Origin: Tabrizicola sp.
GTDB taxonomy: Bacteria > Pseudomonadota > Alphaproteobacteria > Rhodobacterales > Rhodobacteraceae
Length of the DNA stretch: 64,000 nt
Direction of reading: 5' to 3'
NCBI RefSeq assembly: GCF_016793705.1
Contig: NZ_JAEULO010000031.1
Location: 30,511-94,510 of the forward strand
Shown: positions 19,325 to 38,572 of the stretch, one piece after another
Position numbering within the stretch: the first letter of the stretch is position 1
Layout: each line of letters starts with the position of its first letter
Translations under genes and position numbers: made by a program
The notes under the pieces: generated by a model
What the model was told of the DNA's origin: nothing
The model's input: the letters and a program-made list of their open reading frames with translations, nothing else
Database searches by the model: none

Positions 19325-20275
19325 TCAGCCGATCTTCGCGCGCTGAACCAAAGGCGAGCGACCGAAATGGCTGCGATAGACTTTCGAGAAATGCGAGGTC
19401 GACTGGAACCCGCAGGCCATGGCGATTTCGGTCACCGACTGCTCGGTCTGCACCAGCAGGTTCTGCGCCCGGTTCAGCCGCATCTCCATGAAATAGTGCT
19501 TGGGCGTCGAGTTCAGATAGCGCGCGAACAGCCGTTCCAGCTGTCGCGTCGAAATGCCCAGCTCATCCGCGATCAGGCTGGGAGAGTCCGGCGCCTCGAT
19601 GCTGCTCTCCATGATCGCGATGGCGCGCTTCAGATGCTCGTTGCGCATCCCGTGCCGTGACTGGATCGACACCCGTTGCGCCGCCGACCCCTCGCGCACG
19701 GCATTGTAGACCATCTGGTCGGCGACTTCGGTCGCCAGACCCGCGCCATGCGCCTTGCCGATCAGATGCAGCATCAGGTCGGCCGCCGCCGTCCCCCCGG
19801 AGGCGGTGATGATCTTTTCCCGCGCGACGAAGACATTGCGGACCAGGCGGACCTCCGGGAATTCTTCCTGGAACAGGTCGTGCCAGGCCCAGTGCACCGC
19901 CGTCTCCACCCCGTCCAGAAACCCGGCCTTCGCCAGCACATAGGCGCCGGAACAGATCGCGCCCAAGGGCGTGCCCGACGCCCGCTCGCGCCGCAGCCAG
20001 TTCAGTACCGGCGCCGTGGTGTGCGACTGCACATCGACGCCCGAGATCACGAACAGCCGGTCGGCGTGGCGGGTCGGCTCCAGCCCCGCCCCGGTCAGCG
20101 TGACCGATCCGTTGGAGCAGGTTGCGGTCTTGCCGTTCTCGCTGGCGAGCGTCCAGCGGTAAAGCGGCTTGCCCGAGACCAGGTTGGCGATCCTGAGCGG
20201 TTCGAGCGCGCAGGAAAAGGCGATATGGGTGAATTCCGGCAGCAGGAAGAAGCTGAAGTGCTGGGTCTCGATCAT
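19325..20275 (-). CDS. GlxA-type AraC-family regulator, GbdR-like
   Basis: 316 residues. N-terminal DJ-1/PfpI-like domain (1-190) with AICSGAYVLA around Cys108, and a C-terminal AraC helix-turn-helix pair (about 215-312: LIADELGISTRQLERLF and IAMACGFQSTSHFSKVYRSHFG). This is the layout of GbdR/CdhR regulators, which respond to glycine betaine, dimethylglycine or carnitine. It lies next to a ProXWV importer and faces the same way, downstream of proX but separated by a terminator, so it likely controls betaine uptake and breakdown here. The exact inducer is inferred. Confidence 0.87.
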   Translation of the reverse strand: MIETQHFSFFLLPEFTHIAFSCALEPLRIANLVSGKPLYRWTLASENGKTATCSNGSVTLTGAGLEPTRHADRLFVISGVDVQSHTTAPVLNWLRRERASGTPLGAICSGAYVLAKAGFLDGVETAVHWAWHDLFQEEFPEVRLVRNVFVAREKIITASGGTAAADLMLHLIGKAHGAGLATEVADQMVYNAVREGSAAQRVSIQSRHGMRNEHLKRAIAIMESSIEAPDSPSLIADELGISTRQLERLFARYLNSTPKHYFMEMRLNRAQNLLVQTEQSVTEIAMACGFQSTSHFSKVYRSHFGRSPLVQRAKIG

Positions 20276-20294
20276 GACGCTTATCCTACAGGCG

Positions 20295-20322
20295 AAAGGG
20301 CCGCCCCGGAAGGCGGCCCCTT
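20295..20322 (-). terminator. Rho-independent terminator after proX
   Basis: On the minus strand GGGCCGCC (20319-20312) pairs with GGCGGCCC (20305-20298) and is followed by TTTCGCC. It ends the proVWX transcript and separates it from the gbdR-like gene. Its loop and inner stem are nearly the same as the terminator at 31483-31511. Confidence 0.8.
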
Positions 20323-20340
20323 GCGCTCATCTGTCAGGCG

Positions 20341-21330
20341 TCACTTCGCTGCGGCGCGGGCCGCAGCCAGCCAGGAATCGTAGTCGGCCTGGTGCGCGGC
20401 GATCCATTCGTCGGCGTGGCGTTGCAGGTCTTCGGGCTTGTCCTCGCCCTTGGAAATGCGCAGTGCCTCGGCCGAGACGTCGTTGATGTCGATCTTGGCC
20501 GCTTCGAACAGCGCCTTGGCAGCCGGGTTGGCTTCCAGGAAGTCGTTGCGCGCCACGACGCGGATCGAGTCGACGGCGAAGCCCAGGTTCTTGCCGTTGA
20601 ACTCGGTGTTCGCGGTCGCGCCATCGGGCAGCGGGGTGCCTTCCGGAACCGACAGCCATTCGGCATCCTTGCCCGGGACCAGCTCACCGGCGACCCAGTA
20701 GGGAACCCAGGTGTAATAGAGGATCGACCCGCCGTTATCCTTGCGTGCCATCGCGTCGCCGATCATCGCCGGATAGGCGCCCTGGTTGTGCGAGACGGTG
20801 TCGCGCAAGCCAAGCGCATCGAGATGCGTCTCGATCACCCGCTCGCAGCCCCAGCCGGGGATACAGCCCGCAAGGTCGGCCTTGCCGTCGCCATCGGCGT
20901 CGAAGCGCTTGGCGATTTCCGGGTCCTTCAGCATCGACAGGTCGGTGACGCCCGCCTGGTAGCTGGCTTCATCAACCATGTAACCCTGGATCGCGCCGTC
21001 GATGTAGGTGCCGACCTTCGACATCACCGCATCGCCGCCGGCCTCCTGGAAGAAGGCGTCATGCAGCACGTCCCAGCTGACGGCCATGAAGTCCGCATCG
21101 CCCGCGCCGACCGCCAGGTGCATGGTCTGGTATTCGGCCTCGTTCGGGGTGGCGATGGTATAGCCCAGGTCTTCCAGCGCCTTGAACAGGATCAGGTGCT
21201 GCATGTGCTCCTCGATCTGCGTCGGCATGATCGGGCGCACGGTCACGCCCTCGCCGGGCTTGTCGGCGTCCTGCGCGAAGGCGGGGACCGCAAGGGCCAG
21301 CGCCAAAGCCGTGGTCATGAACAGTTTCAT
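20341..21330 (-). CDS. proX: Glycine betaine/proline betaine ABC transporter substrate-binding protein
   Basis: 329 residues. Signal peptide ending AVPAFAQD, then an OpuAC-type fold. Stretches close to E. coli ProX are visible: DADGDGKADLAGC, IPGWGCERVIE, HNQGAYPAMI and YYTWVPYWVAGELVPGKD, including the aromatic residues that cage the quaternary ammonium group. The disulfide-forming cysteines around the PGWGCE segment are retained. It follows proW by 21 bp and closes the proVWX operon. By family it binds glycine betaine or proline betaine; neighbours favour proline-type betaines. Confidence 0.93.
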   Translation of the reverse strand: MKLFMTTALALALAVPAFAQDADKPGEGVTVRPIMPTQIEEHMQHLILFKALEDLGYTIATPNEAEYQTMHLAVGAGDADFMAVSWDVLHDAFFQEAGGDAVMSKVGTYIDGAIQGYMVDEASYQAGVTDLSMLKDPEIAKRFDADGDGKADLAGCIPGWGCERVIETHLDALGLRDTVSHNQGAYPAMIGDAMARKDNGGSILYYTWVPYWVAGELVPGKDAEWLSVPEGTPLPDGATANTEFNGKNLGFAVDSIRVVARNDFLEANPAAKALFEAAKIDINDVSAEALRISKGEDKPEDLQRHADEWIAAHQADYDSWLAAARAAAK

Positions 21331-21351
21331 TCGGTGTCTCCCGGTTGGTTT

Positions 21352-22290
21352 TCAGGTGGTCTTCTTGAACATGGCGGTGATCAGGCCCACCGGCCCGGTC
21401 TCCCACCAATGGCGATGCCCGCGGTCCCGGCCCGACCGGCCAAGCCCCTGGGTGATCCGGTCCAGCACGATGGCCAGCATGACGATGCCGAGGCCGCCAA
21501 CGATGGCCTTGCCCGCATCCAGCCGCCCCATCGCCCGCAGCACTTCGTTGCCGAGCCCCTTGACGGAAATCATCGAGGCGATGACCACCATCGACAGGCT
21601 CAGCATGATTGTCTGGTTCAACCCGGCCAGAATGGTCGGCGTCGCCAGCGGCAGCTCGACCTTGCGCAGGATCTGCCCCGGCGAGGCCCCGAACGCCCGC
21701 GCCGCCTCCACCACGCTGGGGTTCACCCCCCGGATGCCAAGGCTGGTCAGCCGCACCAGCGGCGGCAGCGCGAAGATGATCGTCACGATCACGCCCGAGA
21801 CGTTGCCGATCCCGATCATCATCACGACCGGGACCAGATAGACGAAGGCCGGGATGGTCTGCATCGTATCCAGCACCGGCCGGATGAAGCCCTCGAACCG
21901 GTCGCTCTTGCCCGCCAGCACGCCCAAAGGTAGCCCGATCAGCACGCAGAGGATGACCGAGGCCACCACGATCGCCAGCGTCGTCATGGCGAGCCCCCAG
22001 GCCTCGGGTGCGAGCAGGCCGAGGATCACCAGACAGGCGCCCACCACGATGGCCCCACGCCGCCCGGCGGCCTGCCAGGCGATCAGCACCAGCACGACCA
22101 GCATCGCCATCGGCGGCGTCGCCTGCAAAGCGCTCTCGATCCCGACGATCACCGTTTCGAAGAACCGCTTGATCGGCTGGATCATCTCGCGGTTCGAAAT
22201 CGCCCATTGCTTGATGCCATCGGCCCAGGACGCGATGCCCAGGTCGATCGAAGCGAAGGGGTTCAGCCAGTTGAAACCTTCGTCCGCCAT
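21352..22290 (-). CDS. proW: Betaine ABC transporter permease
   Basis: About 312 residues. Long soluble N-terminal segment (1-55) as in E. coli ProW, then membrane helices with the EAA loop VNPSVVEAARAFGASPGQIL and the family stretch QTIPAFVYLVPVVMMIGIG. The ATG at 22290 overlaps the proV stop (TGATG); a GTG one codon earlier is possible. It forms the inner-membrane channel of the importer. Confidence 0.93.
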   Translation of the reverse strand: MADEGFNWLNPFASIDLGIASWADGIKQWAISNREMIQPIKRFFETVIVGIESALQATPPMAMLVVLVLIAWQAAGRRGAIVVGACLVILGLLAPEAWGLAMTTLAIVVASVILCVLIGLPLGVLAGKSDRFEGFIRPVLDTMQTIPAFVYLVPVVMMIGIGNVSGVIVTIIFALPPLVRLTSLGIRGVNPSVVEAARAFGASPGQILRKVELPLATPTILAGLNQTIMLSLSMVVIASMISVKGLGNEVLRAMGRLDAGKAIVGGLGIVMLAIVLDRITQGLGRSGRDRGHRHWWETGPVGLITAMFKKTT

Positions 22291-23360
22291 CACGCAGCCC
22301 TCTCTTCGTCACGTCCCTGGATGCCGCGTAGAAGCGCGCGCTTCGTCACCACGCCCACCGGCTGGCCTTCGGCCGCGATCAGGATCGGGTGATCCGTCCC
22401 CACCGCCAGGTCGACCAACTCGTTCAGGTTCATCTCGGGCTTGCCCACCGGCCAGCCGCCCGTCTCCTGCGGGCCCTGCGCCTGCACATAAGCGGCGAAG
22501 GGCTGCATGATCCGCGCCGCTGTCACCAGGTCCAGCTTGGAGATTCCGGCCACGAAATCAGCCACATAATCATCTGCAGGCTGGGTGACGATCTCCTCGG
22601 GAGTGCCGATCTGCACCAGCACCCCGTCCTTCATGATCGCGATCCGGTCGCCGATGCGGATCGCCTCGTCCAAGTCATGCGTGATGAAGATCGTGGTCTT
22701 GTGCAGTTCCGCCGACAGCTCCATGAACGTGCCCTGCAACTGCCGCCGGATCAGCGGGTCCAAGGCACTGAAGGGTTCGTCCATCAGCAGGATCGTCGGG
22801 TCCGCCGCCAGCGCCCGGGCCAGGCCCACCCGCTGCTGCATCCCGCCCGAAAGCTCGTCAGGGTATTTCCGGTCCCAGCCGGTCAGGTCCACCATGTCGA
22901 TGGCCTTCGCCGCCACCTTGGCCCGCTCGGTCTCGGACACGCCGCGCACTTCCAGCGAGAAGGCTACATTGTCGCGCACTGTCCGGTGCGGCATCAGCGC
23001 CATCGCCTGAAACACCATGCCGATCTTTTCCGCGCGAAGTTTGCGCAGCGTTTCGGCATTCATCGCGTTAACGTTCTGCCCCTCGATGAACACCGTGCCC
23101 GAGGTCGGCTCGATCAGCCGGTTGATGTGGCGGATCAGCGTCGATTTCCCCGACCCCGACAGCCCCATGATGCAGAAGATCTCGCCCCGCCCCACGCTGA
23201 AGCTCGCGTCCTGCACCCCGACGACGCAATCGAACTCTTCACGGATATCCTTTTTTGACAGGCCCTTCGACCGCACGGCCTCCATCGCCTGACGCGACCT
23301 GTCACCGAAAATCTTCCAGATCCCCTCGCAGCGGATCACGTCCTCACGGGCATCAGCCAT
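22290..23360 (-). CDS. proV: Betaine ABC transporter ATP-binding protein
   Basis: 356 residues from the ATG at 23360, which follows a GGGGGAGAG ribosome site. ATPase core with GLSGSGKSTLI, LSGGMQQRVGLARAL and DEPFSALDP; an extra N-terminal region with KGLSKKDI is typical of ProV/OpuAA. The C-terminal 90 residues form a short CBS-like part (about 270-350), which in ProV senses ionic strength, though only one CBS repeat is evident. First gene of proVWX, divergent from the gntR-led operon. Confidence 0.93.
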   Translation of the reverse strand: MADAREDVIRCEGIWKIFGDRSRQAMEAVRSKGLSKKDIREEFDCVVGVQDASFSVGRGEIFCIMGLSGSGKSTLIRHINRLIEPTSGTVFIEGQNVNAMNAETLRKLRAEKIGMVFQAMALMPHRTVRDNVAFSLEVRGVSETERAKVAAKAIDMVDLTGWDRKYPDELSGGMQQRVGLARALAADPTILLMDEPFSALDPLIRRQLQGTFMELSAELHKTTIFITHDLDEAIRIGDRIAIMKDGVLVQIGTPEEIVTQPADDYVADFVAGISKLDLVTAARIMQPFAAYVQAQGPQETGGWPVGKPEMNLNELVDLAVGTDHPILIAAEGQPVGVVTKRALLRGIQGRDEERAA

Positions 23361-23407: not shown

Positions 23408-23437
23408 TGTAGACAATATGTATTTTATCCGACTACA
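23408..23437. promoter_or_regulatory. AT-rich divergent control region with TGTAG...CTACA inverted repeat
   Basis: The 136-bp gap between divergent proV and gntR has a locally AT-rich core. TGTAG (23408-23412) and CTACA (23433-23437) form an inverted repeat about 25 bp centre to centre. It is a reasonable place for binding of the GntR or GbdR-like regulator, but the repeat is short. Confidence 0.3.
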
Positions 23438-23496: not shown

Positions 23497-24219
23497 GTGG
23501 ACAGCGATTCCCGCAGCAAGAAGACGCAATGCATCGAGGACCTGCGCCGCCGGGTCCTGACCGAGGCATTGCAGCCGGGCATTTACCTGGACGAGGTGGA
23601 ACTCGCTGAAACCTACGGCATTTCCCGCCCGCCCCTGCGCGAGGTGCTGCGTCAGCTGGCGGGCGAAGGCTACCTCGTCCTGCACGAGAACCGCGGCGCG
23701 CAGGTCGCGCCGATGTCGCACAAGACGATGCGCAACTTCTTCGTCGCGGCGCCGATGATCTATGCGGCGACCACCCGCCTTGCGGCGGAGAACGCGACGC
23801 CCGCGCAGATCGTGAAGCTCAAGGAATGCCAATGGGCCTTTCGCCAGGCGATCAAGTCGGGCGATTCGGCGGAACGCGCGCTCGGGAACGAACGCTTCCA
23901 TTCCATCATCGGCGAAATGGCCGACAACGAATTCCTGATGCCCTCGTTGCGCCGCCTGCTGATCGACCACACCCGCATCGGGATGACCTTCTACAACCCC
24001 CGCAAGCTGCACCTCGCGCCCCAGCGCGAGCTTGCCGCCGACCAGCACGACCAGTTCATCGACCTGATCGAGGCTGGCGATGCCGACGCTGCCGGCGACC
24101 TCGCAGTCGCCCATTGGGAGCTTTCGCGCCAGCAGATCGAAAGCTTCGTTACTCCCGAAAGCATGACCATTCCACTTGGCCGCGCGCCAGGGCAGTCCGA
24201 AACACGAGGAGCCTCATGA
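23497..24219 (+). CDS. GntR-family regulator, FCD (FadR) subfamily
   Basis: 240 residues from a GTG start behind AGGCAGGAGAG. Winged helix-turn-helix at 10-75 (LAETYGISRPPLREVLRQLA) and an all-helical FCD ligand domain (about 85-225) with His residues (ERFHSIIGEM and LLIDHTRIGM) that usually bind a metal and an organic acid. It is the first gene of the operon with the DapA-like lyase, overlapping it by four bases (ATGA), so it very likely regulates that operon and perhaps divergent proVWX. Confidence 0.92.
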   Translation: MDSDSRSKKTQCIEDLRRRVLTEALQPGIYLDEVELAETYGISRPPLREVLRQLAGEGYLVLHENRGAQVAPMSHKTMRNFFVAAPMIYAATTRLAAENATPAQIVKLKECQWAFRQAIKSGDSAERALGNERFHSIIGEMADNEFLMPSLRRLLIDHTRIGMTFYNPRKLHLAPQRELAADQHDQFIDLIEAGDADAAGDLAVAHWELSRQQIESFVTPESMTIPLGRAPGQSETRGAS

Positions 24220-25118
24220 AATTCGAAGGCATCTATACACCCGCCATCACACCGCATCGTGAGGATGGGTCCATCGACCGCGACGCATTCGTCGCCCAGC
24301 TGGAATATCTGATCGCGCAGGGCGTCCACGGCATCATCAACGGCGGCTCGACCGGGGAATACTACGCCCAGTCGATGCAGGAACGGCTGGAGATGGCCTC
24401 CCTCGCCCGCGATGTCACCAAAGGCCGCACGCATCTGATGGTCGGCACCGTGGCGATCCGGCTGGAGGACTCGATCACCATGGCCGAACACGCGGCCAAG
24501 ATCGGGGCCGATTCGATCCTCGTCGGCTCGCCGCCCTATTCGGTTCCGACCGAACAGGAAAACGCCTTGAACGCGCTGGCCATCGACCGCGCCGCCGATC
24601 TGCCGATCATGCTCTACAACTACCCGGGCCGGATGGGCATCAACATGGGCGAGGAGTTTCTCGACCGTGTCGGCCGGTCCGCCAACTTCGCGGCCATCAA
24701 GGAATCCTCGGGCGATATCAACCGGGTGCACCTTCTCGCCCGCGACTACCCGCATATCCAGATGTCCTGCGGCATGGACGACCAGGCGCTGGAATTCTTC
24801 GCCTGGGGCGCGCGCAGCTGGGTCTGCGGTGGCTCGAACTTCCTGCCCGCCGAACACCTCGCCCTCTACAAGGCCTGCGCGGTGGAGGGCAACTTCGACA
24901 AGGGCCGCCGGATCATGTCGGCGCTGATGCCGCTGATGCGGGTGCTGGAACAGGGAGGAAAGTTCATCCAGTGCATCAAGCACGGCTGCGAGATGATGGG
25001 CCAGTACGCCGGCCCCCCGCGCCCCCCGCTCAAAGGCCTGAACAAGGACGACAAGCGCCAGCTGGAACAGACCGTGCGCGTCCTCAAGACCACCATCGCC
25101 CAGATCGTTGCGGAGTAA
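24216..25118 (+). CDS. Dihydrodipicolinate synthase/N-acetylneuraminate lyase family protein (possible 1-pyrroline-4-hydroxy-2-carboxylate deaminase)
   Basis: 300 residues, a DapA-type TIM barrel with Schiff-base Lys162 (AAIKESSGD), Tyr134 (LYNYPGR) and a GGSTGEYY loop at 43-50 in place of the GTTGE of true DapA. It is therefore a catabolic family member, not lysine biosynthesis. In hydroxyproline and hydroxyproline-betaine pathways a DapA-family enzyme opens and deaminates pyrroline-4-hydroxy-2-carboxylate to 2-oxoglutarate semialdehyde; the aldehyde dehydrogenase 3 bp downstream and HpbD nearby fit that. The precise reaction is inferred from context. Confidence 0.8.
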   Translation: MKFEGIYTPAITPHREDGSIDRDAFVAQLEYLIAQGVHGIINGGSTGEYYAQSMQERLEMASLARDVTKGRTHLMVGTVAIRLEDSITMAEHAAKIGADSILVGSPPYSVPTEQENALNALAIDRAADLPIMLYNYPGRMGINMGEEFLDRVGRSANFAAIKESSGDINRVHLLARDYPHIQMSCGMDDQALEFFAWGARSWVCGGSNFLPAEHLALYKACAVEGNFDKGRRIMSALMPLMRVLEQGGKFIQCIKHGCEMMGQYAGPPRPPLKGLNKDDKRQLEQTVRVLKTTIAQIVAE

Positions 25119-25121
25119 GCC

Positions 25122-26615
25122 ATGAGCCTCCTGACCACCGAAGAATACAAGGCCATCGCCGCCGGTCTCTCCTTCCCGACGACCGCCTTCATCGACGGCC
25201 ACTTCCGCCCCGCAATCAGCGGCAAGACCTTCGACACGCTGAACCCCGCCACCGGCGCAGTGCTGGCCAAGGTCGCCGCCTGTGGCCCCGAGGATGTGGA
25301 CCTCGCCGTCCAGAAAGCCCGCGACGCCTTCGAGGATGGCCGCTGGTCGCGCCTGCACCCGAAGGAACGCAAGGAAACGCTCATCAAGCTGGCGAAGCTG
25401 GTGAAGCGCAACGCCCGCGAACTCGCTGTGCTGGAATCGCTCGACTCAGGGAAAACGATCTACGACTGCGAACAGGTCGATGTGCCGGAAACCATCAACT
25501 GCCTGACCTGGCACGCCGAGCTGATCGACAAGATCTACGACCAGGTCGCCCCGGCCAGTGACAACCACATCGCCATGATCGTCCGCGAACCCGTGGGCGT
25601 CGTCGGCCTCGTCCTGCCCTGGAACTTCCCCCTCCTGATGCTCGCCTGGAAGATCGGCCCCGCCTTGGCCGCCGGCTGCTCGGTCATCGTCAAACCCGCC
25701 GAGGAAACCCCCCTCACCACCCTCCGCATGGCCGAACTGGCGATGGAGGCCGGCATCCCGCCCGGCGTCTTCAACGTCGTCCCCGGCGCCGGCCCCGACG
25801 TGGGCGAACCTATCGGTCGCCACATGGACATCGACGCCGTCTCCTTCACCGGCTCGACCGAAACCGGCCGCCGCTTCCTGCGCTATGCCGCCGAATCCAA
25901 TCTCAAGGAAGTCACCCTTGAAATGGGCGGCAAGAACCCCGCCGTGGTCCTCGATGATGCCGAGAACATCGACCGTGTCGCCGCCCATATCGTCAACGGC
26001 GCCTTCTGGAACATGGGCGAGAATTGCTCCGCCTCGTCCCGCCTGATCGTGCAGAAGGGCATCAAGGACGAACTTCTGAAACGCATCGTCGCCCATACCC
26101 GCGAATGGCCGATGGGCGACCCTCTCGACCCGACCAACCGCGTCGGCGCGCTTGTCTCGAAGGCGCATTTCGACAAGGTGGCCAGCTACCTCGACAAAGG
26201 CCCGAAAGTCATCCTCGGCGGCAAGGCCGAAAAGGGTTTCGTCGAACCCACCATCCTCGACACCCCTCGCGACGCGAAGCAGGCGAAGGAAGAAATCTTC
26301 GGCCCCGTCCTCTCCGTCCTCACCGTCGACAGCTTCGACGAGGCCATTGCGTTGGCCAACGACACCGAATACGGCCTCGCCGCCAGTATCTTCACCGCCA
26401 ACGTCAAGCGCGCGCTCCGCGGCGCCCGCGCGCTGCGCGCCGGGACCGTCACCGTGAACTCCTTCGGCGAGGGCGACATCTCCACCCCCTTCGGCGGCTT
26501 CAAGCAATCGGGGTTCGGTGGCCGCGACAACGGCATCCACGCCCATGACCAGTACACTCAGGTCAAGACGATCTGGGTCGACCTCGCCGACGACGCGGAC
26601 GAAGCCGTCGGCTGA
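25122..26615 (+). CDS. NAD(P)-dependent aldehyde dehydrogenase (possible 2-oxoglutarate semialdehyde dehydrogenase)
   Basis: 497 residues, full-length ALDH. Catalytic Cys302 (GENCSASSR), general base Glu267 (LEMGGKNP) and Asn168 (LPWNFP) are intact. Overall it resembles the PuuC/BetB-like group. The gene lies 3 bp after the DapA-like gene and 2 bp before the P5C-reductase-like gene. If the lyase makes 2-oxoglutarate semialdehyde, this enzyme would oxidise it to 2-oxoglutarate; the alternative is a betaine or amino-aldehyde substrate. Confidence 0.88.
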   Translation: MSLLTTEEYKAIAAGLSFPTTAFIDGHFRPAISGKTFDTLNPATGAVLAKVAACGPEDVDLAVQKARDAFEDGRWSRLHPKERKETLIKLAKLVKRNARELAVLESLDSGKTIYDCEQVDVPETINCLTWHAELIDKIYDQVAPASDNHIAMIVREPVGVVGLVLPWNFPLLMLAWKIGPALAAGCSVIVKPAEETPLTTLRMAELAMEAGIPPGVFNVVPGAGPDVGEPIGRHMDIDAVSFTGSTETGRRFLRYAAESNLKEVTLEMGGKNPAVVLDDAENIDRVAAHIVNGAFWNMGENCSASSRLIVQKGIKDELLKRIVAHTREWPMGDPLDPTNRVGALVSKAHFDKVASYLDKGPKVILGGKAEKGFVEPTILDTPRDAKQAKEEIFGPVLSVLTVDSFDEAIALANDTEYGLAASIFTANVKRALRGARALRAGTVTVNSFGEGDISTPFGGFKQSGFGGRDNGIHAHDQYTQVKTIWVDLADDADEAVG

Positions 26616-26617
26616 TC

Positions 26618-27382
26618 ATGCGCGTCGGGTTCCTCGGCACCGGAGAGATCACCGCCGCCATGGTGCGCGGCCTGAAAGGCCAGGGTCACAGGATCCTGGT
26701 CTCGCCCCGCAACGCCGCCATGGCCGCGACCCTCGCCGCCGAAGTGCCCGAAGTCGCCATCGCCCCCAACGAACAGGTGGTAGAGGGGTCCGATGTGGTC
26801 TTCCTCTGCCTCCTCGCCCGCGTGGCAGCCGAGGTTCTCCCCAGCCTTCCCTTCCGCGCGGGCCAATCCGTCATCTCGGTCATGGTCGACGCCCCCCTCG
26901 CCACCCTGCGCACCCTTTGCGCCCCCGCAACCGACATCGCCATCACCATTCCGCTCCCTCCGATCACCACCGGCGGCTGCCCGCTGCCGGTCTACCCGGC
27001 CTCCCCTGCGCTCGACGCCCTTTTCGGCGAGAAGAACCTGATCCTGCCGCAACCCTTCGAGGCCGCCCTCAACGCCCATCTCGGCGCCTCGGCCCTCTGC
27101 TCGCCGATCCTCGACCAGCTCCTCACCGCGACCGAATGGCTGGCCGGTCACACCGGCAACCCCGCCGCTGCCGAGGCCTATATCGCCGCCATGATCCGCG
27201 GCTACCTGCCCGAGCGCGCGGCAGAGGGCGACCTTGCCGAGGCACTGAAAAAGCTTTCCACCGAAGGCGGCCTCAACGCCACCTTGCGCGCGGCGATGGC
27301 GCCTGCGAAAGAATCGCTCCGCCAAGGCCTGACCGCATTCCACAGCCGCCTCGGGCTGGATGATCCCAAAGGACGGACATGA
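26618..27382 (+). CDS. Pyrroline-5-carboxylate reductase-like NAD(P)-binding protein
   Basis: 254 residues. Rossmann start MRVGFLGTGEITAAMVRGL and the ProC-like SVMVDAPLATLRTL / ITIPLPPITTGGCPLPV pattern, where ProC normally has a P-N-TP motif. The C-terminal helical domain is shorter and diverged, so it is not a standard proline-biosynthesis ProC. It overlaps the FAD oxidoreductase gene by four bases and is embedded in a cyclic-amine catabolic operon; reduction of a cyclic imine is a sensible guess, but the substrate is unknown. Confidence 0.7.
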   Translation: MRVGFLGTGEITAAMVRGLKGQGHRILVSPRNAAMAATLAAEVPEVAIAPNEQVVEGSDVVFLCLLARVAAEVLPSLPFRAGQSVISVMVDAPLATLRTLCAPATDIAITIPLPPITTGGCPLPVYPASPALDALFGEKNLILPQPFEAALNAHLGASALCSPILDQLLTATEWLAGHTGNPAAAEAYIAAMIRGYLPERAAEGDLAEALKKLSTEGGLNATLRAAMAPAKESLRQGLTAFHSRLGLDDPKGRT

Positions 27383-28719: not shown

Positions 28720-28794
28720 ACCGTCGCGATCAACCCAGATCGCCCTCGGCGAGCGGCCCAGAAACCGCCAATAGCCCCTCCCCGCGACCCGCAG

Positions 28795-28820
28795 GGTGCG
28801 TGATTTCACGCACCTTCCTT
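28795..28820 (+). terminator. Hairpin terminator after the gntR-led operon
   Basis: GGTGCGTG (28795-28802) pairs perfectly with CACGCACC (28807-28814) around a 4-nt loop, followed by TTCCTTT. It lies 76 bp after the FAD oxidoreductase stop. Confidence 0.65.
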
Positions 28821-28890
28821 TCGCCTGCATTCCTTGTCAAACGGTTAACGCCCACGCGCAAGCCATTGATTTCGCGCAGTCGGATTTTTT

Positions 28891-28903
28891 GTCCACCGTG
28901 GAC
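28891..28903. repeat. Perfect 13-bp palindrome GTCCACCGTGGAC between convergent operons
   Basis: Arms of six bases around a single C, only 2 bp from the 3' end of the first SDR gene, with a run of six T residues just before it on the plus strand. Not a good terminator for the minus-strand genes because the following bases on that strand are A residues. Role unknown. Confidence 0.35.
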
Positions 28904-28905
28904 AC

Positions 28906-30367: not shown

Positions 30368-31471
30368 TCACCCGAACGCGAGAACCGGCTTGCCGAACAT
30401 GCCTTCTTCTGGCTCGACCCCCAGGCCGGGGCCTTCCGGCAGCTTGATGTGGCCGCCGACGATATTGACGCCGCTCCTGTCGTAGTTGCCCTCGATGTAG
30501 GGCGCGGCCAGCCAGACCCCTTCGTTCAGCCGAGGTTGCACGGTCGCGCCGATATGGGTGCAGGCCGCCGCGATGATGTCGCCACCCCAGGCGTCGTCGC
30601 AGGTGTGGGGCAGGCTGCGCGCCTCGCAGATGTCGCGGAAGGCGGCCATCTGCTGCAACCCGCCGATCCGCGTGACCTTCATGCCGAAGCCGTCGACCAG
30701 GCCCTGCCCCGCGACGCGCACCACCGTCGCGAGGTCCTCGCCCATCTCGTCGAGGTAGATACCGTGATGGACCTGCCCCCGGATCGCCGCCAGTTCCTCG
30801 ATGGTGTTGCAGGGCTGCTCGAGAATGAAGGGAATATCCTGGCATTCGCGCGACAGCCGCAGCGCATCGCGCGTCGGAAGGCCCCGGTTGCCGTCCGCCG
30901 CCAGCCGCACGCCCTTGCCCTTGATCACGTCCCAGACCTTGCGCAGCACGGCGATGTCGATTTCCACCGGACGCCCGCCGATCTTGATCTGCAGCCGGGG
31001 ATAGCCCTCGGCAACCTTCTCGGCGGCGATGCGGGCGATCTCGTCGGGCTCTCCGACGCCGGTGGCGTAATAGGAGGGGACGCTTTCCTGCGCCACCCCG
31101 CCCAGAAGCTCGGCGACCCGCAAGCCGGTCGCCTTGCCCATGATGTCATGCGCCGCAATGTCCACCGCGGCCTTGGCATAGCGATGCCCGTTCAACAGGC
31201 TGTCCATCTTCCGCCGCAGGCTCAGCGGATGCGGCGAGGCGCCGATCAGCCCCGGCCCCATCTCCTCCAGCGCCGCGCGTGCCCCCTTGGCATGCGCCGG
31301 AGCATAGGTGGACCCCACCGGGCAGGTCTCGCCCCAACCGACAAGGCCGGTGTCGGTGACGATCTTCACCAGCGTGGTGTCCAGCGAATACACCTTGGCA
31401 TTGGCCATCTTGTAGGGCCCGTTCTTGACCGGCAGGTCATGGGCGTAGACGTGGAGTTCCTTGATCTTCAT
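30368..31471 (-). CDS. hpbD: 4-hydroxyproline betaine 2-epimerase (enolase superfamily)
   Basis: 367 residues, mandelate-racemase/muconate-lactonising branch. Two catalytic lysines and three metal ligands are at Lys163 (LQIKIGG), Asp193, Glu218, Asp241 and Lys265 ([11 protein letters not shown]); these are the same residue numbers I recall for Pelagibaca bermudensis HpbD, and the N-terminal [13 protein letters not shown] and C-terminal [18 protein letters not shown] regions match it closely. HpbD epimerises trans-4-hydroxy-L-proline betaine (and proline betaine) at C2 as the first catabolic step. It starts directly behind a terminator hairpin that follows mttB. Confidence 0.9.
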
Positions 31472-31511: not shown

Positions 31512-31522
31512 GGTCACAGGGA

Positions 31523-33073
31523 TCAGTGTTCGGTGTTCAACTCGTCCACCGCCGGAATCTCGCGCTCCCGCCGGGCGATGTAATCCAGCAAAGCCTCGTT
31601 GACGCCTTCGTCCAGCTTCGGCTCCTCGTAGTCGGCCAGCAGCTGCCGCGCCCGGTCCAGCGCGCGCTGGGTGATCTCGACCGAACCCTCGGCCTGCCAT
31701 TGCTCGATACTGTTGTTGTCGAACAGCTTCGGCATGAAGAAGGCCCGTTCGAAGTTCTCCAGCGTGTGCGGATGGCCCAGGTAATGCCCGCCGGGCCCCA
31801 CGTCGCGCACTGCCTGCATCGCCTCGTCAAAGTCGTCCCAGCGCGGGCCTTCCGCCATGCGGTAGCCCATCTGGCACATCTCGGCATCGACGACGAACTT
31901 GGCGATGGAACAGTGCATTCCGGCCTCGTTCCACCCGGCGGAGTGCCAGATGTAGTTGGCCCCGGCGTGCAGGACCGCGTTCATCGTCATGGCACTTTCA
32001 TACCCCGCCTGCGCGTCGAAGGTCTTGGCCCCGCCGAGAAGGTTCGAAGTGCGCCACGGCACGTTGTAGTAGCGCGCCATCTGCCCGATCATGAAATTCA
32101 TGAGGGAAATTTCCGGCGTCCCTGCCATCGGCGCGCCGGATTTCATGGAGACGGTCGAGAGGTAGTGGCCGTAGATCGCCGGGGCGCCCTTGCGGATCAC
32201 CTGCGTATAGGCCAGCGCCGACAGCGCCTCGGCGTTGAGCTGCGCCACGGCGGGGGCGACGGAGGCGGGGGTGTTCGCCCCGCCGAGGACGAAGGGCGAG
32301 CAGAGGACGGGCTGCTTCCGCTTCACGAAGGCGCGCATGGCCGACAGCATCGTCTCGTCCCAGACGAGGGGCGAGTTGCCGTTGCAGTTGCCGGTGGTGA
32401 CGGGGGTTTCCTCCATCACATCCTTGCCGAACAGGATCTCGCACATCGCCATCACATCCTCGGCGTTCTTGCCCGAGGTCGTCATGCCCATGAAGGTCTT
32501 GTCCGAGTGTTTCATCGACGAATAGGTGATGTGCAGGTGCCGGTGGCTGACCTTCATGTCCATCGGCTCGACGATGTGGTGCGCGGTGGAATGCAGCGCG
32601 GGCGACATATGGGCCAGCTTGTGGAAGGTGTTCAGGTCGGCGATCGTCGGCCAGCGGCGCACGTCGTCGAGGTCGCGGATGAAGGGCGCGCCGGTCATCG
32701 GGACAAAGATCGAATGCTTGCCGCCGAAGGGCAGGCTGCGCTCGGGGTTCCGCGCCCGATAGGTCCAGCCCGAGGGAATGGTTGCGATCAGTTCCCGCAC
32801 AAGCCCACGGTCCAGATGCACCCGGTCGCCGACCACCTTGGCGCCCGCCCGCTTCCAGTCGGCTAAGGCGATCTCGTCGCGGAAGGTCACGCCGACCTCT
32901 TCCAGGATCGACATCGAGGCATTGTCGATCTGTTCCACCCGCGCGGGGTCCATCACCTCGCAGTCGGGGATGCCGCGTTTCAGCGCGGGGAGCATGTCGA
33001 AATCCGGGGCCGAGCGGAGCGCACGGCGGGCCCCGCGGCCTCCGGCACGGGCGGTTCTGACGACTTCGTTCAT
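31523..33073 (-). CDS. Trimethylamine methyltransferase (MttB) superfamily protein, non-pyrrolysine type
   Basis: 516 residues, full-length TIM-barrel member of the MttB family, with an uninterrupted frame (no internal stop that would encode pyrrolysine). The start at 33073 has a strong CAGGAGGGACGCC ribosome site. Non-pyrrolysine MttB proteins demethylate quaternary amines such as glycine betaine (MtgB) or proline betaine (MtpB), passing the methyl group to a corrinoid protein. Next to hpbD it is the best candidate for N-demethylation of the betaine, but no corrinoid protein or reactivation protein gene is in the window. Confidence 0.88.
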   Translation of the reverse strand: MNEVVRTARAGGRGARRALRSAPDFDMLPALKRGIPDCEVMDPARVEQIDNASMSILEEVGVTFRDEIALADWKRAGAKVVGDRVHLDRGLVRELIATIPSGWTYRARNPERSLPFGGKHSIFVPMTGAPFIRDLDDVRRWPTIADLNTFHKLAHMSPALHSTAHHIVEPMDMKVSHRHLHITYSSMKHSDKTFMGMTTSGKNAEDVMAMCEILFGKDVMEETPVTTGNCNGNSPLVWDETMLSAMRAFVKRKQPVLCSPFVLGGANTPASVAPAVAQLNAEALSALAYTQVIRKGAPAIYGHYLSTVSMKSGAPMAGTPEISLMNFMIGQMARYYNVPWRTSNLLGGAKTFDAQAGYESAMTMNAVLHAGANYIWHSAGWNEAGMHCSIAKFVVDAEMCQMGYRMAEGPRWDDFDEAMQAVRDVGPGGHYLGHPHTLENFERAFFMPKLFDNNSIEQWQAEGSVEITQRALDRARQLLADYEEPKLDEGVNEALLDYIARREREIPAVDELNTEH

Positions 33074-33198
33074 GGCGTCCCTCCTGGCGCTGCGGTCGCG
33101 CCATCAGGCGTCGGATTGCGGGCATCCACAGTAGCGGCTGCGAAGCGGATCGGGGTTTTTGCGACATCCCCGACAGAGCGGCAGCCGCAGGCGGCCCC

Positions 33199-34821: not shown

Positions 34822-34885
34822 TCCGGCCCCCAAGGTTCGGTCTGGTCAGACTTAAGCATGGAAATTGAAGCTTGTTTAACGGAAT

Positions 34886-35554
34886 TCAGAAAGGCGACGG
34901 GGCCGTGAAACGGACCCAGGCGCCGGTTGTCGGATGGTGCAGGGCCAGGCTCTCGGCGTGGAGCATCAGGCGGGAGTGCTCCGCCAGGGTCTCGGGCGCG
35001 TAGATCTGGTCGCCGAGGATCGGGTGGCCAAGCGCCAGCATGTGCACCCGCAACTGGTGGCTGCGCCCGGTGTGCGGGGTCAGGCGGACGCGGGTCTCAT
35101 GGCTGGCGCGGTCGATCACCTGCCAGTCGGTGACGGCGGGGCGGCCATGCACCGGGTCGATCTTCTGGCGCGGGCGATAGTCCCAGTCGCTGCCGATGGG
35201 CAGATCGACGGTGCCGCTGTCGGGGGTGAGGCGACCCTTCAGCCGCGCGACATAGGTCTTCTCTGCCCGGCGCTGCTCGAATTCCTGCCCGAGGAAGCCC
35301 TGCGCCTGTTTGGTGCGTGCGAAGATGATTACGCCCGAGGTGTCACAATCGAGCCGGTGCACGGTCAGCGCATCCCAGCGCGCGGCCTGCAACCGTGTGA
35401 TCAGGCAATCCTTCCGGTTTTCCAGTTTCCCCGGGACGGTGAGAAGGCCTGCGGGCTTGTCGACCACGATGATCGCCGCGTCCTCGTGAAGGATGGACAG
35501 GGGCACGTCCGGTGGATCGTAGGCGAAGTCGGGGATCAGCGAGGGCTTATGCAA
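34886..35554 (-). CDS. RNA pseudouridine synthase, RluA family
   Basis: About 222 residues from a TTG start (35554) preceded by GAAGGGCACCAGA; this overlaps the end of the homocysteine methyltransferase gene by eight bases. The catalytic motif VHRLDCDTSG contains the active-site Asp, and the family motifs IIVVDKPAGLLTVPG and TGRSHQLRVHM follow the expected order. No S4 RNA-binding domain. It isomerises uridine in rRNA or tRNA; which position is not known. It looks like a housekeeping gene caught between catabolic genes. Confidence 0.9.
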   Translation of the reverse strand: MHKPSLIPDFAYDPPDVPLSILHEDAAIIVVDKPAGLLTVPGKLENRKDCLITRLQAARWDALTVHRLDCDTSGVIIFARTKQAQGFLGQEFEQRRAEKTYVARLKGRLTPDSGTVDLPIGSDWDYRPRQKIDPVHGRPAVTDWQVIDRASHETRVRLTPHTGRSHQLRVHMLALGHPILGDQIYAPETLAEHSRLMLHAESLALHHPTTGAWVRFTAPSPF

Positions 35555-36437
35555 TCTGGTGCCCTTCGCCGATGAGCCGGTGGTGCAGGTGGCGGATATG
35601 CGCGGGCCCGACCTCGCAGCAGCCGCCGATGAGGGTGGCCCCCTGCGCGACCCAGCCGAGGGCGAAATCGGTGTAGCGCTCGGGGGAAAGATCGTGGCGG
35701 GCGCAGTAGTCGGGGGCGCTGGTGCCGTGGCTGTGCGAAGTGATCTCGGAAAACCCGTTGGCATAGGCGCCGAAGGGCAGGCCGAAGGGTTTCAGCGCGA
35801 TGAGCGCTGTCGCCATCGCCTCGGGCATCGAGCAGTTGGCGAGGACGGCGTCGGCGGGGGTCTCCGCCAGCACCTCGGCGAGGGCAGCGACGGGTTCGCC
35901 GGAGCGGAGCCGGGTGCCGTCACGGTCCTGGACGGAGACCGAGAGCCAGACCGGGCGGTCGGTGGTCCGCGCGCCCTTCAATGCCCCCCGGGCAAGGTCG
36001 AGCGAGGAGATCGTTTCGATCAGGATCAGGTCGACATGCGGGGCGAGGAGGCGGGCCTTCTCGGCATAGAGCGCAACGGAGACCTGCACTGGCGGGGTCA
36101 GGTCGGGGCGGTAGCTTTCGCCCAGGGGGCCCATCGACCCCGCGATCAACCCGCGCCCGGCGGCAGCGCGGGCCTCATGCGCCTCGGCCAGGGCACGGAG
36201 GTGGAGGGCGTGGTAGAGATGGTCGAGGCCCTGCGGGGCCAGCCGGTCGTGCAGGATGTTGTAGGTGTTGGTGGTCGCAAGGCTGGCCCCGGCGGCGAAG
36301 TAATCCTCGTGGATCGCGCGGACCAGGCCGGGGTGGTCGATCATCACCCGCGTCGCCCAGAGCGGGCCGGGGTCGGACCCGGCGCGAGCGATCAGTTCCT
36401 GGCCCATGCCGCCGTCAAGGAGGGTGATCGTGGTCAT
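35547..36437 (-). CDS. Homocysteine S-methyltransferase family protein
   Basis: 296 residues, Pfam S-methyl_trans type. It starts TTITLLDGGMGQELIARAG and carries the zinc-ligating cysteines in LANCSMPEAM and IGGCCEVGP near the C-terminus. Relatives move a methyl group from betaine, S-methylmethionine or a methylated cofactor to homocysteine. In this locus it could accept methyl groups from betaine demethylation. The active-site zinc motif (C..GGCC) is complete, so it should be functional; the donor is unknown. Confidence 0.88.
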   Translation of the reverse strand: MTTITLLDGGMGQELIARAGSDPGPLWATRVMIDHPGLVRAIHEDYFAAGASLATTNTYNILHDRLAPQGLDHLYHALHLRALAEAHEARAAAGRGLIAGSMGPLGESYRPDLTPPVQVSVALYAEKARLLAPHVDLILIETISSLDLARGALKGARTTDRPVWLSVSVQDRDGTRLRSGEPVAALAEVLAETPADAVLANCSMPEAMATALIALKPFGLPFGAYANGFSEITSHSHGTSAPDYCARHDLSPERYTDFALGWVAQGATLIGGCCEVGPAHIRHLHHRLIGEGHQIA

Positions 36438-36502
36438 ATCAGGTCTCGTCTTTTCGCCCCGTGGCTGGTGGGTGGGGCTTCCGCACCCCCAGGCCCCCGG
36501 TG

Positions 36503-36530
36503 GAGTAGTCAGGCCAAGAGGAAGCGCAAT
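36503..36530 (+). repeat. Degenerate 28-bp intergenic repeat, copy A
   Basis: Starts GAGTA and ends GAGGAAGCGCAAT; 22 of 28 positions match the copy at 55262-55289. It follows a G/C-rich hairpin-like stretch (about 36468-36500) in a gap between minus-strand genes. Confidence 0.5.
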
Positions 36531-36543
36531 CTAGTCGAATGGT

Positions 36544-37020
36544 TCAGGTCGCATCACGAAAGACCTCGGCGAGGAGGGGGGCAAGCCAGTCCTCATCTTC
36601 TTTCGTGAAGGCAGCGGCGGTGTTGCTGTCGAGGTCGAGGACGCCCAGAAGCTTGCCTTGGCCGTTCCGGACCGGGAGGACCAGTTCAGACTTTGTCGAG
36701 GAGGAACAGGCGATATGGCCGGGGAAGGCCTCGACATCGGGGACGTTCTGGACCTGTCCCGTGCGGGCGGCGGCGCCGCAGACGCCTCGGGAGAAGGGGA
36801 TCACCAGGCAGCCGTGGCCGCCCTGATAGGGGCCGATCTTCAGAAGCTCCGGCGCGGTGACGCGGTAGAAGCCGGTCCAGTCGGCAAGCGGATGCGCATG
36901 GTGGATTTCGCAGGCTACGGTGGCCATCAGCGCGACGGTATCCGTCTCGCCATGGGTAAGGGCGCGGATCGAAGCGGTGATCGCGGGGCGGTCGATATCA
37001 GTAGCCAAGGGCGCAGCCAT
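36544..37020 (-). CDS. msrC: Free methionine-(R)-sulfoxide reductase (GAF domain)
   Basis: 158 residues, one GAF domain. Cysteines at 71, 81 and 105 have the same spacing (10 and 24 residues) as the catalytic Cys84, Cys94 and Cys118 of E. coli fRMsr, inside GPYQGGHGCLVIPFSRGVCG and AFPGHIACSSSTKSELVLPV. It reduces free L-methionine-(R)-sulfoxide using thioredoxin. The first 22 bases overlap the 3' end of the GGT gene, so the two are co-transcribed. The symbol msrC is the one used for E. coli yebR-type enzymes. Confidence 0.9.
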   Translation of the reverse strand: MAAPLATDIDRPAITASIRALTHGETDTVALMATVACEIHHAHPLADWTGFYRVTAPELLKIGPYQGGHGCLVIPFSRGVCGAAARTGQVQNVPDVEAFPGHIACSSSTKSELVLPVRNGQGKLLGVLDLDSNTAAAFTKEDEDWLAPLLAEVFRDAT

Positions 37021-38572
37021 CCTTTCTGGGGTCCGAGGCGCCGACCAGCACCTCGCCGTCGATGCGGATCGCCTGGGCGCCGCCGAGGGGTGCTGCAGGG
37101 ACCACGACCGGGTGGCCCATGGCGGCAAGCTCGGCGCGGACCTGGTCGGAATAGCCGCGCTCGACCTCCATCCCCTCGGGGCCGGAGAAGGAGCGGGGGG
37201 CGTCGATGGCCTCTTGCAGGTCCATGCCGTAGTCGGTGAGGTTGGTGACGAAGCGGGCATGGCCGCAGGGTTGGTAAGCCCCGCCCATCACTCCGAAGGG
37301 CATCAGGACCTTGCCGTTCTGGCGGATCATGCCGGGGATGATCGTGTGCATCGGGCGCTTGCCGCCCCCCGCTTCGTTCGGGTGCCCCTCGGCGAGGGTG
37401 AAGCCCGCGCCGCGGTTCTGGAAGTTGATGCCGAATTTCGAGGAGGCGAGGCCCGAGCCGAAGCCCCAAAATACCGAGTAGATCAGCGAGACCGCCATCC
37501 GGTCACGGTCAACGACAGTGATGTAGATCGTGTCCCGATGTACGGCCTCGGTCAGGGGGGCGGCGGCGGGCATGGCGCGTTTCGGGTCGATCAGGGCGGC
37601 AAGCTTCGCGGCGGTCTCGGGCGACAGCATGTGCGCCAGCCGCGTCGTGAGGTCGGGGTCGGCGATGAAACGGTTGCGGGCGTCGTAGGCGAGCTTCGTC
37701 GCCTCGGCCTCGATATGGGCGCGCTGACTGCCGAACGGGTCCACCGCGCCGAGGTCGAAATGCCTGAGGATGTTGAGCATCAGGATCGCTGTCGCGCCCT
37801 GGCCGTTCGGCGGGTGCTCGACCAGTTCGACCCCCTTGTAGGGGCCGGAGACCGGGGTGGTATAGTTGCAGGCGCTGGCGGAGAGGTCATCGAGTGTATG
37901 GGTGCCGCCGAGGGCGCGGAGCGAGGCGATCATGTCCTCGGCCACCTCGCCTTCATAGAATCCGGCGCGGCCTTCCTTCGAGACGCGGCGCAGGACCTCG
38001 GCCTGACCGGGGGCGCGAAACACCTGCCCGACGGCAGGAGCCTTGCCGCCGAAACTGTAGAAGTCCCGCGCGGCCCCTTTCAGGCATGGCAGGTCATCCA
38101 CCCAGTCGAAGGCGACGCGGGGCGCTACGGGGACACCTTCCTCGGCATAGTGGATGGCGGGGGCAAGGACCTCGGCCATCGATTTCATCCCGTAGTCGGT
38201 GTTCAGGCGGCAGAAAGCGTCCACGGCGCCGGGCAGGGTGACCGCCTCGATCCCCTGGATCGGGATCGCGCTCAGCCCGCTCGCGCGAAGGTCGGCAGCG
38301 TTCAGTCCCATCGGCGCGCGACCGGAGCCATTCAGCGCGATCACGTCTTCGGATCCGGCGGGCTTGACCAGCACGAAGCAGTCACCGCCGATCCCGGTCA
38401 TCTGCGGCTCGGCAATGCCCAGGACCAGTGCACCGGCAATGGCGGCGTCCACCGCGTTGCCGCCGGATTTCAGCATGGCAACGGCCACCTGTGCGGCCAG
38501 CGGATGCGAGGTGGCGCAGATGCCGTTCCGTGCATAGACAGCCGACCGGCCGGGAAAGTGAAGATCGCGCAT
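36998..38572 (-). CDS. Gamma-glutamyltransferase family protein
   Basis: 524 residues, Ntn-hydrolase of the GGT family. The self-cleavage nucleophile is Thr348 in RDTIYITVVDRD, aligned with the TTHYSVVD of E. coli GGT; the small-subunit C-terminal GGGKRPMHTIIPGM motif is present. There is no signal peptide at the chosen ATG (38572), unlike classical periplasmic GGT, so it is likely a cytoplasmic acylase-type member acting on gamma-glutamyl or other amide compounds. Overlaps msrC. Upstream ATG at 38590 (MSLGATMRD) is an alternative. Confidence 0.88.
   Translation of the reverse strand: MRDLHFPGRSAVYARNGICATSHPLAAQVAVAMLKSGGNAVDAAIAGALVLGIAEPQMTGIGGDCFVLVKPAGSEDVIALNGSGRAPMGLNAADLRASGLSAIPIQGIEAVTLPGAVDAFCRLNTDYGMKSMAEVLAPAIHYAEEGVPVAPRVAFDWVDDLPCLKGAARDFYSFGGKAPAVGQVFRAPGQAEVLRRVSKEGRAGFYEGEVAEDMIASLRALGGTHTLDDLSASACNYTTPVSGPYKGVELVEHPPNGQGATAILMLNILRHFDLGAVDPFGSQRAHIEAEATKLAYDARNRFIADPDLTTRLAHMLSPETAAKLAALIDPKRAMPAAAPLTEAVHRDTIYITVVDRDRMAVSLIYSVFWGFGSGLASSKFGINFQNRGAGFTLAEGHPNEAGGGKRPMHTIIPGMIRQNGKVLMPFGVMGGAYQPCGHARFVTNLTDYGMDLQEAIDAPRSFSGPEGMEVERGYSDQVRAELAAMGHPVVVPAAPLGGAQAIRIDGEVLVGASDPRKDGCALGY

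Follow-up and report, generated by a model that had tools for sequence, protein, structure and literature searches.

A Tabrizicola locus with a predicted corrinoid-dependent route for degrading proline-type betaines

The stretch of Tabrizicola sp. DNA analysed here, the window, comprises 64,000 nucleotides (positions 30511-94510 of contig NZ_JAEULO010000031.1, our C27, in genome G000) and carries a gene cluster that includes a betaine-type importer, HpbD, an MttB-family corrinoid methyltransferase and a set of amino acid catabolic enzymes. We favour, with moderate confidence, the reading that this locus serves the uptake and breakdown of proline-type betaines, with 4-hydroxyproline betaines as the likeliest substrates, through B12-dependent demethylation by MttB. 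An initial annotation had described a betaine uptake and catabolic locus, a description that gene content and clustering support.

In the predicted route, ProVWX would import the betaine, and MttB would move one N-methyl group onto the corrinoid protein MtgC, which RamA and a DUF1638 protein would keep active. MtgD would hand the methyl group to tetrahydrofolate, with the MetF-like reductase route oxidising it. A flavoprotein would remove the second N-methyl group; the candidates are the DAO-family oxidoreductase (DAO) of the locus and, from outside it, an enzyme of the TMADH/OYE family. Together, DAO, a DapA-like lyase and an aldehyde dehydrogenase (ALDH) would then degrade the D-hydroxyproline skeleton to 2-oxoglutarate, by way of a cyclic imine and ketoglutarate semialdehyde.

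Results

The assembly spans 3.84 Mb in 73 contigs and is 94.5% complete. Within the window, the locus forms three transcription units: proVWX with a regulator gene (minus strand, 19325-23360), a gntR unit (plus strand, 23497-28719) and an mttB unit (minus strand, 33073-28906). The start and stop codons of neighbouring genes overlap or adjoin throughout gntR-dapA-aldh-proC-dao, and the genes of mttB-hpbD-sdrA-sdrB are separated by gaps of 51 bp and 8 bp, followed by a 4-bp overlap. Open reading frames and Pfam searches confirmed every gene named in the initial annotation, and their order. Most genes of the locus belong together, in an arrangement beyond chance, and some of those that the annotation included are probable bystanders.

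HpbD, the (4-hydroxy)proline betaine 2-epimerase, is encoded at 30368-31471 (minus strand). A phmmer comparison with PDB entries 4e8g, 4izg and 4j1o gave 652 bits over residues 1-366, with 283/366 residues identical (77%), and about 515 bits against 2pmq and 4h2h. We take the first three entries to be Paracoccus denitrificans HpbD, their PDB titles being generic. The KIGG and GMKxTRIGG motifs are conserved in the alignment together with both lysines, presumably the active-site residues. The nearest NCBIfam model, cis-3-hydroxy-L-proline dehydratase, gave 283 bits, under its cut-off of 500. By sequence, the window protein is orthologous to the structurally solved HpbD, and epimerase activity is predicted for it.

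The neighbouring mttB gene (31523-33073, minus strand) encodes a non-pyrrolysine MttB-family corrinoid methyltransferase, which matches PF06253 over the full profile (positions 1-500, 728 bits) and has no in-frame TAG or other stop. The genome contains seven pfam06253 proteins. Marine bacteria of this kind are described as having up to seven such frames, for which further methylated substrates besides glycine betaine are suggested but unassigned (PMC12478193). In a FastTree phylogeny of 111 MttB proteins, 100 including the window MttB form one clade with local support of 0.987; the group had been chosen by at least 60% identity and was then seen to contain no others. The six other MttB paralogues of the genome lie outside this clade and are 26-41% identical to the window protein, and HpbD-linked members are intermixed within it with members from core-only loci (defined below). 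The window MttB scored 494 bits against 4yyc and 347 bits against 2qne and 9yce, the former presumably Desulfitobacterium hafniense MtgB and the latter titled glycine betaine methyltransferase in the PDB. The initial annotation had listed MttB with no link to demethylation; we propose that it is itself the likely first N-demethylase of the locus.

The association of MttB with HpbD was assessed in a family survey of 248 genomes from 247 genera, with thresholds of 1e-150 for MttB, 1e-100 for HpbD and 1e-120 for the Stc2-like Rieske oxygenase. Matches were obtained to MttB in 66 genomes, to HpbD in 15, to the Stc2-like Rieske in 47 and to RamA in 233; G033, with 49% identity, was dropped from the MttB set, leaving 65. 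The MttB clade is present in 14/15 genomes with HpbD versus 51/233 others (Fisher p 2.8e-8). The Stc2-like Rieske occurs in 6/15 and 41/233, respectively (p 0.04), and none of the six is at least 70% identical; the threshold used there also takes in relatives of about 53-59% identity that may be of the GbcA type.

The comparison of hpbD neighbourhoods called for in the initial annotation was run on loci from named genomes, namely the best 80 of 119 relatives, with flanks of up to 10 kb, several of them shorter. The MttB clade is found near HpbD in 42 of these 80 loci, 33 of which also hold at least two of DapA, ALDH and DAO; a Rieske protein at least 50% identical to that of the Paracoccus locus L022 is found in 12. 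A complementary set of 59 MttB loci came from the original 66 MttB genomes, from which G000 itself and the unfetched G033, G078, G115, G180, G198 and G236 were left out. L178 has no MttB and was excluded from the MttB tallies; three records belong to both sets (L061 = L128, L019 = L169, L064 = L178).

DapA, ALDH and DAO are all present in 46/59 MttB loci; among the 46 MttB loci from genomes without HpbD, 37 have all three. MttB shares a directon with at least one member of this trio in 28/59 loci, and the exact GntR-DapA-ALDH-MttB-DAO directon occurs in 11/59. The pair of short-chain dehydrogenases/reductases (SDRs) is found in 20/59 loci overall, its distribution following HpbD: 11/13 MttB loci with HpbD in the genome versus 9/46 without (p 3e-5). 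In L084, GntR-DapA-ALDH-MttB-HpbD-SDRA-SDRB-DAO, all eight genes, form a single directon, taken there as a same-strand run with gaps below 250 bp, and L026, L027, L049 and L061 keep this gene order on one strand with larger gaps. The system is thus a core, GntR-DapA-ALDH-MttB-DAO, with HpbD and the two SDRs as apparent add-on modules.

The initial annotation had also pointed out that no Rieske demethylase pair is present, and this was borne out: Pfam searches found neither an Stc2-type Rieske oxygenase nor its reductase in the locus, to which the reductase search was confined. The genome-wide check named beforehand gave a consistent picture, with no Stc2-type Rieske at 1e-120 in the whole assembly. 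Three Rieske alpha-subunits are encoded in the genome; their identity to the Stc2 type found with HpbD is only 26-34%, the highest value covering no more than 214 residues, and they score 117-139 bits against the NCBIfam GbcA model, for which the cut-off is 670. In the Paracoccus loci L022, L025, L032 and L034, an Stc2-type Rieske adjoins HpbD. The L022 protein scores 798 bits against 3vca and 800 against 4qup, a type that we take to be Stc2; the title of 4qup reads 'Monoxygenase; demethylase'.

The Rieske search was extended to 50 genomes, comprising 42 with MttB by HpbD (40 of the 42 loci with both genes, plus L009 and L031, which have an MttB fragment) and 8 controls. At 1e-120, 15 of the 42 genomes were without an Stc2/GbcA-like Rieske and 27 had one, only 4 at 70% identity or above. 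Among the controls, the four Paracoccus loci with the Stc2 type gave 83-100% (one being the query itself), and L052, L060, L062 and L071 gave best matches of 51-58%. The threshold also lets in relatives of 48-59% identity, possibly of the glycine-betaine GbcA type; since the 55-59% matches may be GbcA-type enzymes, these genomes do not generally lack every kind of Rieske demethylase.

The catabolic trio lies in the gntR unit. The DapA/DHDPS-family lyase (24216-25118, plus strand; PF00701, 172 bits) and the ALDH (25122-26615, plus strand; PF00171, 554 bits) are 65% and 67% identical to Rhizobium plasmid homologues, and the FAD-dependent DAO (27379-28719, plus strand; PF01266, 145 bits) is 46% identical to its own. 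No DAO relative was found in the PDB at 1e-15, and the NCBIfam models leave the specificity of the ALDH undecided. In a published account, cis-hydroxyproline oxidase, pyrroline-4-hydroxy-2-carboxylate deaminase and ketoglutarate-semialdehyde dehydrogenase belong to the DAAO, DHDPS and ALDH families (eLife 2014, PMC4113996), and enzymes of these three families stand together in one operon in the window. By family, DAO would thus be a D-hydroxyproline or N-methyl-hydroxyproline oxidase, the DapA-like lyase a deaminase of the cyclic imine, and the ALDH an alpha-ketoglutarate-semialdehyde dehydrogenase.

Next to the Rhizobium trio are genes for an ABC transporter of the betaine type and for a 4-hydroxyproline epimerase (PRK13971, 577 bits, cut-off 376), and an Agrobacterium plasmid carries an equivalent annotated trio in the same company; no MttB is among the annotated genes of the two stretches shown. 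The presence of a 4-hydroxyproline epimerase suggests that the trio acts on D-hydroxyproline and that any fitting epimerase could feed it. As a separate observation, three annotated 4-hydroxyproline epimerases (L182:16594-17592, L183:3753-4748 and L184:16611-17609) read DRSPGGTG where S. meliloti reads DRSPCGTG, with glycine at what appears, from PMC4113996, to be the second catalytic cysteine position.

Genes resembling the remaining corrinoid chain are scattered over other contigs. Contig C33 encodes a two-domain B12 protein (PF02607 and PF02310), MtgC-like, with a DUF1638 gene alongside and a homocysteine-methyltransferase gene about 1.5 kb away; contig C8 carries a RamA-like gene, and on contig C1 a Pterin_bind protein adjoins a frame matching 5,10-methylenetetrahydrofolate reductase (MetF-like). 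By domains and gene context, these genes resemble the MtgC/DUF1638/MtgE/MtgD-MetF2 set of Ruegeria pomeroyi, where strains mutated in mtgC or mtgD can no longer synthesise methionine or use glycine betaine (PMC12478193). A second Pterin_bind match, on C28, was rejected as MtgD, as it lies beside GlmM- and FolB-like frames and is probably FolP; the C1 match taken instead scores lower. Two homocysteine S-methyltransferase genes were seen in the genome (window 35547-36437 and L096:11642-12703). The C33 gene looks like MtgE, and the window copy is left with no clear role.

Removal of the second methyl group could fall to TMADH/OYE-family proteins, and outside the locus the genome has two, 68% and 59% identical to HpbD-linked ones; TMADH-like genes occur in 7/59 MttB loci. 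The TMADH-like proteins of L117 and L118 are at most tentative candidates for StcD, the N-methylproline demethylase, as they reached no NCBIfam cut-off and the fetched stretch of Sinorhizobium meliloti pSymB gave no Stc2 match. The frame at L118:499-3288 is 930 residues long, with the flavoprotein part starting from about residue 262, and in several S. meliloti records the TMADH/OYE match likewise covers an NADH:flavin oxidoreductase and a TetR regulator.

The ProC-like reductase (26618-27382, plus strand; PF03807; PRK06476 161 bits, under the cut-off of 254) is an occasional accessory, present in 5/80 HpbD loci, 4 of them inside the trio operon; of the 59 MttB loci, clustering places it in 8 and tblastn in 10. 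In L008 and L010, which also have a ProC-like gene, a proline-racemase-family protein (f23; L008:12423-13451, L010:13546-14574) is encoded beside dao; the L008 protein is nearest to trans-3-hydroxyproline dehydratase, at 328 bits with a cut-off of 550. These neighbours hint that the ProC-like protein may be a pyrroline-2-carboxylate reductase. The initial annotation had suggested that the route may differ from the known one. It probably does depart from the Rieske route; that the SDRs and the ProC-like enzyme make the difference finds no support in these counts, the ProC-like gene being rare and the SDR pair an add-on.

SDR-A (29631-30359, minus strand) matches PF13561 with 169 bits, and SDR-B (28906-29634, minus strand) is the last gene of the mttB operon; against the NCBIfam SDR model they score 191 and 219 bits, both under the cut-off of 312. 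A frame at 28730-29446 was discarded as the SDR gene, having no family match; the correct frame is 28906-29634.

The importer unit encodes a ProX-like betaine-binding protein (20341-21330, minus strand; PF04069, 117 bits), a ProW-like permease (21352-22293, minus strand; PF00528, 90 bits) and a ProV-like ATPase (22290-23360, minus strand; PF00005, 120 bits). A longer open frame of proV reaches 23399, and the in-frame ATG at 23360 is the more likely start. The unit ends with a regulator gene (19325-20275, minus strand; Pfam HTH_18 and DJ-1_PfpI) that had been described as GbdR-like. A regulator is indeed present, and its identity as GbdR is unsupported: since it scores 311 bits with the NCBIfam GbdR model, under the cut-off of 480, we name it a GlxA/AraC relative.

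Between the divergent proVWX and gntR operons, upstream of the GntR/FCD regulator gene (23497-24219, plus strand; PF00392 and PF07729), lies a conserved site, TGTAGACAATATGTATT (23408-23424, plus strand). Among loci having this GntR, the site is found at most 350 bp upstream of gntR in 27/36 of the HpbD set and 19/42 of the MttB set, which have two records in common. Elsewhere, 7 sites with up to 3 mismatches were counted in 2.59 Mb, and the window contains a single occurrence. The site is probably a GntR operator serving both divergent operons. No such site was found upstream of the window mttB, and a GntR operator at mttB was rejected as general co-regulation, as only 5/99 mttB upstream regions exceeded 99% of background in a position weight matrix scan. 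Two of the five (L057 and L141) are, by reading, the conserved ALDH C-terminus, L019 and L169 are the same record, and the fifth is L155. Upstream of mttB, a spaced TCGCA repeat (33138-33166, minus strand), the sole place in the window, is a weak candidate for a regulator site, with similar sites upstream of mttB in 8/44 and 2/59 loci versus 85 sites elsewhere.

Beyond the mttB unit, the glutamate-synthase-like, RluA-like, homocysteine-methyltransferase, GAF and GGT genes recur together only in L008 among the 80 loci, several of them shortened; single weaker matches are a GAF protein in L037 (44%) and a GltS-like protein in L157 of the MttB set (57%). Grouped in L008 only, these five genes probably lie outside the module, and the FMN glutamate-synthase-like and homocysteine-methyltransferase genes look like bystanders. 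Directly preceding the locus, at window 15728-19278 (plus strand), is an apparently complete look-alike of a sugar-type ABC transporter (ATPase, permease and binding protein).

Four further loci (L059, L063, L080 and L082, from SAR92/Porticoccaceae and a gammaproteobacterial metagenome-assembled genome) encode HpbD proteins 67-69% identical, accompanied by two other SDRs and an epimerase-type SDR, and in three of them by an FAA-hydrolase family protein close by. Neither MttB nor a Rieske was detected in their fetched flanks, and this gene company suggests another use of HpbD.

Discussion

The core-plus-add-on pattern is the strongest result of the comparison, yet also the strongest caution on the substrate. 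Several observations weigh against B12-dependent degradation of proline-type betaines. No HpbD is found in 51 of the 65 MttB-clade genomes, and the main substrate of the clade may thus be one on which HpbD does not act. Even where both are present, MttB lies outside the directon of HpbD in 17/42 loci, and 30/80 HpbD loci have neither the MttB clade nor a Rieske of at least 50% identity in the fetched flanks. Strict mutual exclusion of MttB and the Rieske was rejected: 8/248 genomes carry both (p 0.14, not significant), as do 4/80 HpbD loci. Some Stc2/GbcA-like Rieske is encoded in 27 of the 42 MttB-HpbD genomes searched, and at 94.5% completeness a Rieske gene of the Tabrizicola genome could be absent from the data. 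RamA was rejected as a discriminating marker; found in 233/248 family genomes and 64/65 genomes with MttB, it discriminates nothing, and no RamA match was obtained in genome G054, which is 99% complete and whose record (L128/L061) has the full gene set. Finally, we compared the trio with S. meliloti 1021 pSymB, NC_003078 260000-305000, presumably the hyp locus, a record that bears no annotation. DapA and ALDH are only 27.5% and 25.8% identical there, and no DAO match was found in that stretch at 1e-8.

A first rival reading is that the MttB/DapA/ALDH/DAO core degrades another, non-proline quaternary amine. Certain lineages would then have acquired HpbD and the SDRs as additions that supply a common later step or handle a side substrate. 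The many HpbD-less genomes, the persistence of the whole trio in 37/46 of their MttB loci and the 26-28% identity to the compared S. meliloti stretch all suit such a history, which we regard as unlikely, if worth keeping in view. It accounts poorly for the tight tie of HpbD to the MttB clade (14/15), for the Rhizobium and Agrobacterium trios clustered with an annotated 4-hydroxyproline epimerase, and for the ProC-like (8/59) and TMADH-like (7/59) genes in MttB loci; trans-3-hydroxyproline-dehydratase-like genes (f23) beside the trio in L008 and L010 likewise speak for a proline-type substrate.

Improbable, in our judgement, is an ordinary Rieske pathway in which an Stc2/GbcA-type enzyme encoded elsewhere takes off the first methyl group, leaving MttB to act on glycine betaine or some other amine. 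The Paracoccus loci do pair HpbD with an Stc2-type Rieske, the Tabrizicola genome has three Rieske genes, and most of the searched MttB-HpbD genomes have a candidate; set against this, the three proteins are remote from the Stc2 type and far under the GbcA cut-off, the genome has no match at 1e-120, and neither do 15/42 of the genomes searched. A chance pairing of two separate systems, one made up of an osmoprotectant importer and a hydroxyproline operon, the other an HpbD/MttB/SDR operon with a different purpose, would fit the opposite strands and different upstream elements of the two operons in the window, including the lack of a GntR site upstream of its mttB. We consider this very improbable in view of the single eight-gene directon of L084, the conserved order on one strand in L026, L027, L049 and L061, and the 33 of 42 HpbD-MttB loci holding at least two trio genes.

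Several known systems come close to the reading we favour, degradation of proline-type betaines through MttB. HpbD belongs to the hpb pathway for hydroxyproline and proline betaines in Pelagibaca bermudensis and Paracoccus denitrificans, reportedly the work of Zhao in 2013 and Kumar in 2014. The window locus shares with it the HpbD orthologue, a betaine transporter and the DAO/DapA/ALDH classes; its Stc2-type Rieske and reductase are missing from the locus, with the oxygenase not found in the assembly, and MttB and two SDRs are present. According to a review that cites Kumar 2014, work on P. denitrificans and Rhodobacter sphaeroides established how proline betaine is degraded, with two demethylation steps (PMC11337228). 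Searches limited to open-licence PMC text brought up no statement linking HpbD and MttB; Kumar 2014 could contain one, and may have discussed the R. sphaeroides MttB before. Cereibacter (Rhodobacter) sphaeroides 2.4.1 has the same core genes in the same arrangement on its plasmid pB (MttB WP_011331276, HpbD WP_011331277, SDR pair WP_011331278/279, DapA WP_011331282). The annotation there shows nothing ProC-like between the ALDH and FAD oxidoreductase genes, and the flanking genes are different.

The MtgBCDE system of Ruegeria pomeroyi demethylates glycine betaine aerobically with the help of cobalamin and is linked to methionine synthesis (PMC12478193). In domains and gene context it is alike, having a pfam06253 methyltransferase whose corrinoid, pterin, RamA and DUF1638 partners are encoded separately; the window MttB, in contrast, stands in a clade apart from its six paralogues, and its gene neighbours are HpbD and catabolic genes of the proline type. 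MtpB of Eubacterium limosum, alike at the level of the MttB superfamily, demethylates proline betaine (PMC8604678). That organism is an anaerobic acetogen, whereas the window MttB is clustered with an apparent route for degrading the whole molecule. The trans-4-hydroxy-L-proline pathway (4HypE and others; PMC4113996) shares the DAAO/DHDPS/ALDH family trio, the window having a betaine epimerase and MttB in place of the free-amino-acid epimerase.

More tentatively, the locus may represent a modular cobalamin route for hydroxyproline betaines in aerobes. MttB would load the corrinoid protein used in methionine synthesis as well, and the fixed MttB-DAO-DapA-ALDH core would take one stereoisomer. 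HpbD, acting at carbon 2, and the SDR pair, acting at carbon 4 via a ketone, would be clip-on adaptors that invert the configuration. Where a core-only locus has no second demethylase, methylamine might even be released by DAO and the DapA-like lyase rather than ammonia.

The favoured reading is directly testable in R. sphaeroides 2.4.1. If it is true, one widespread MttB clade would gain a substrate class, and cobalamin-dependent demethylation in aerobes would widen from glycine betaine to proline-type osmolytes, which are salt-stress compounds. Another nutrient route would then rely on vitamin B12 supply and on a corrinoid protein common to methionine synthesis.

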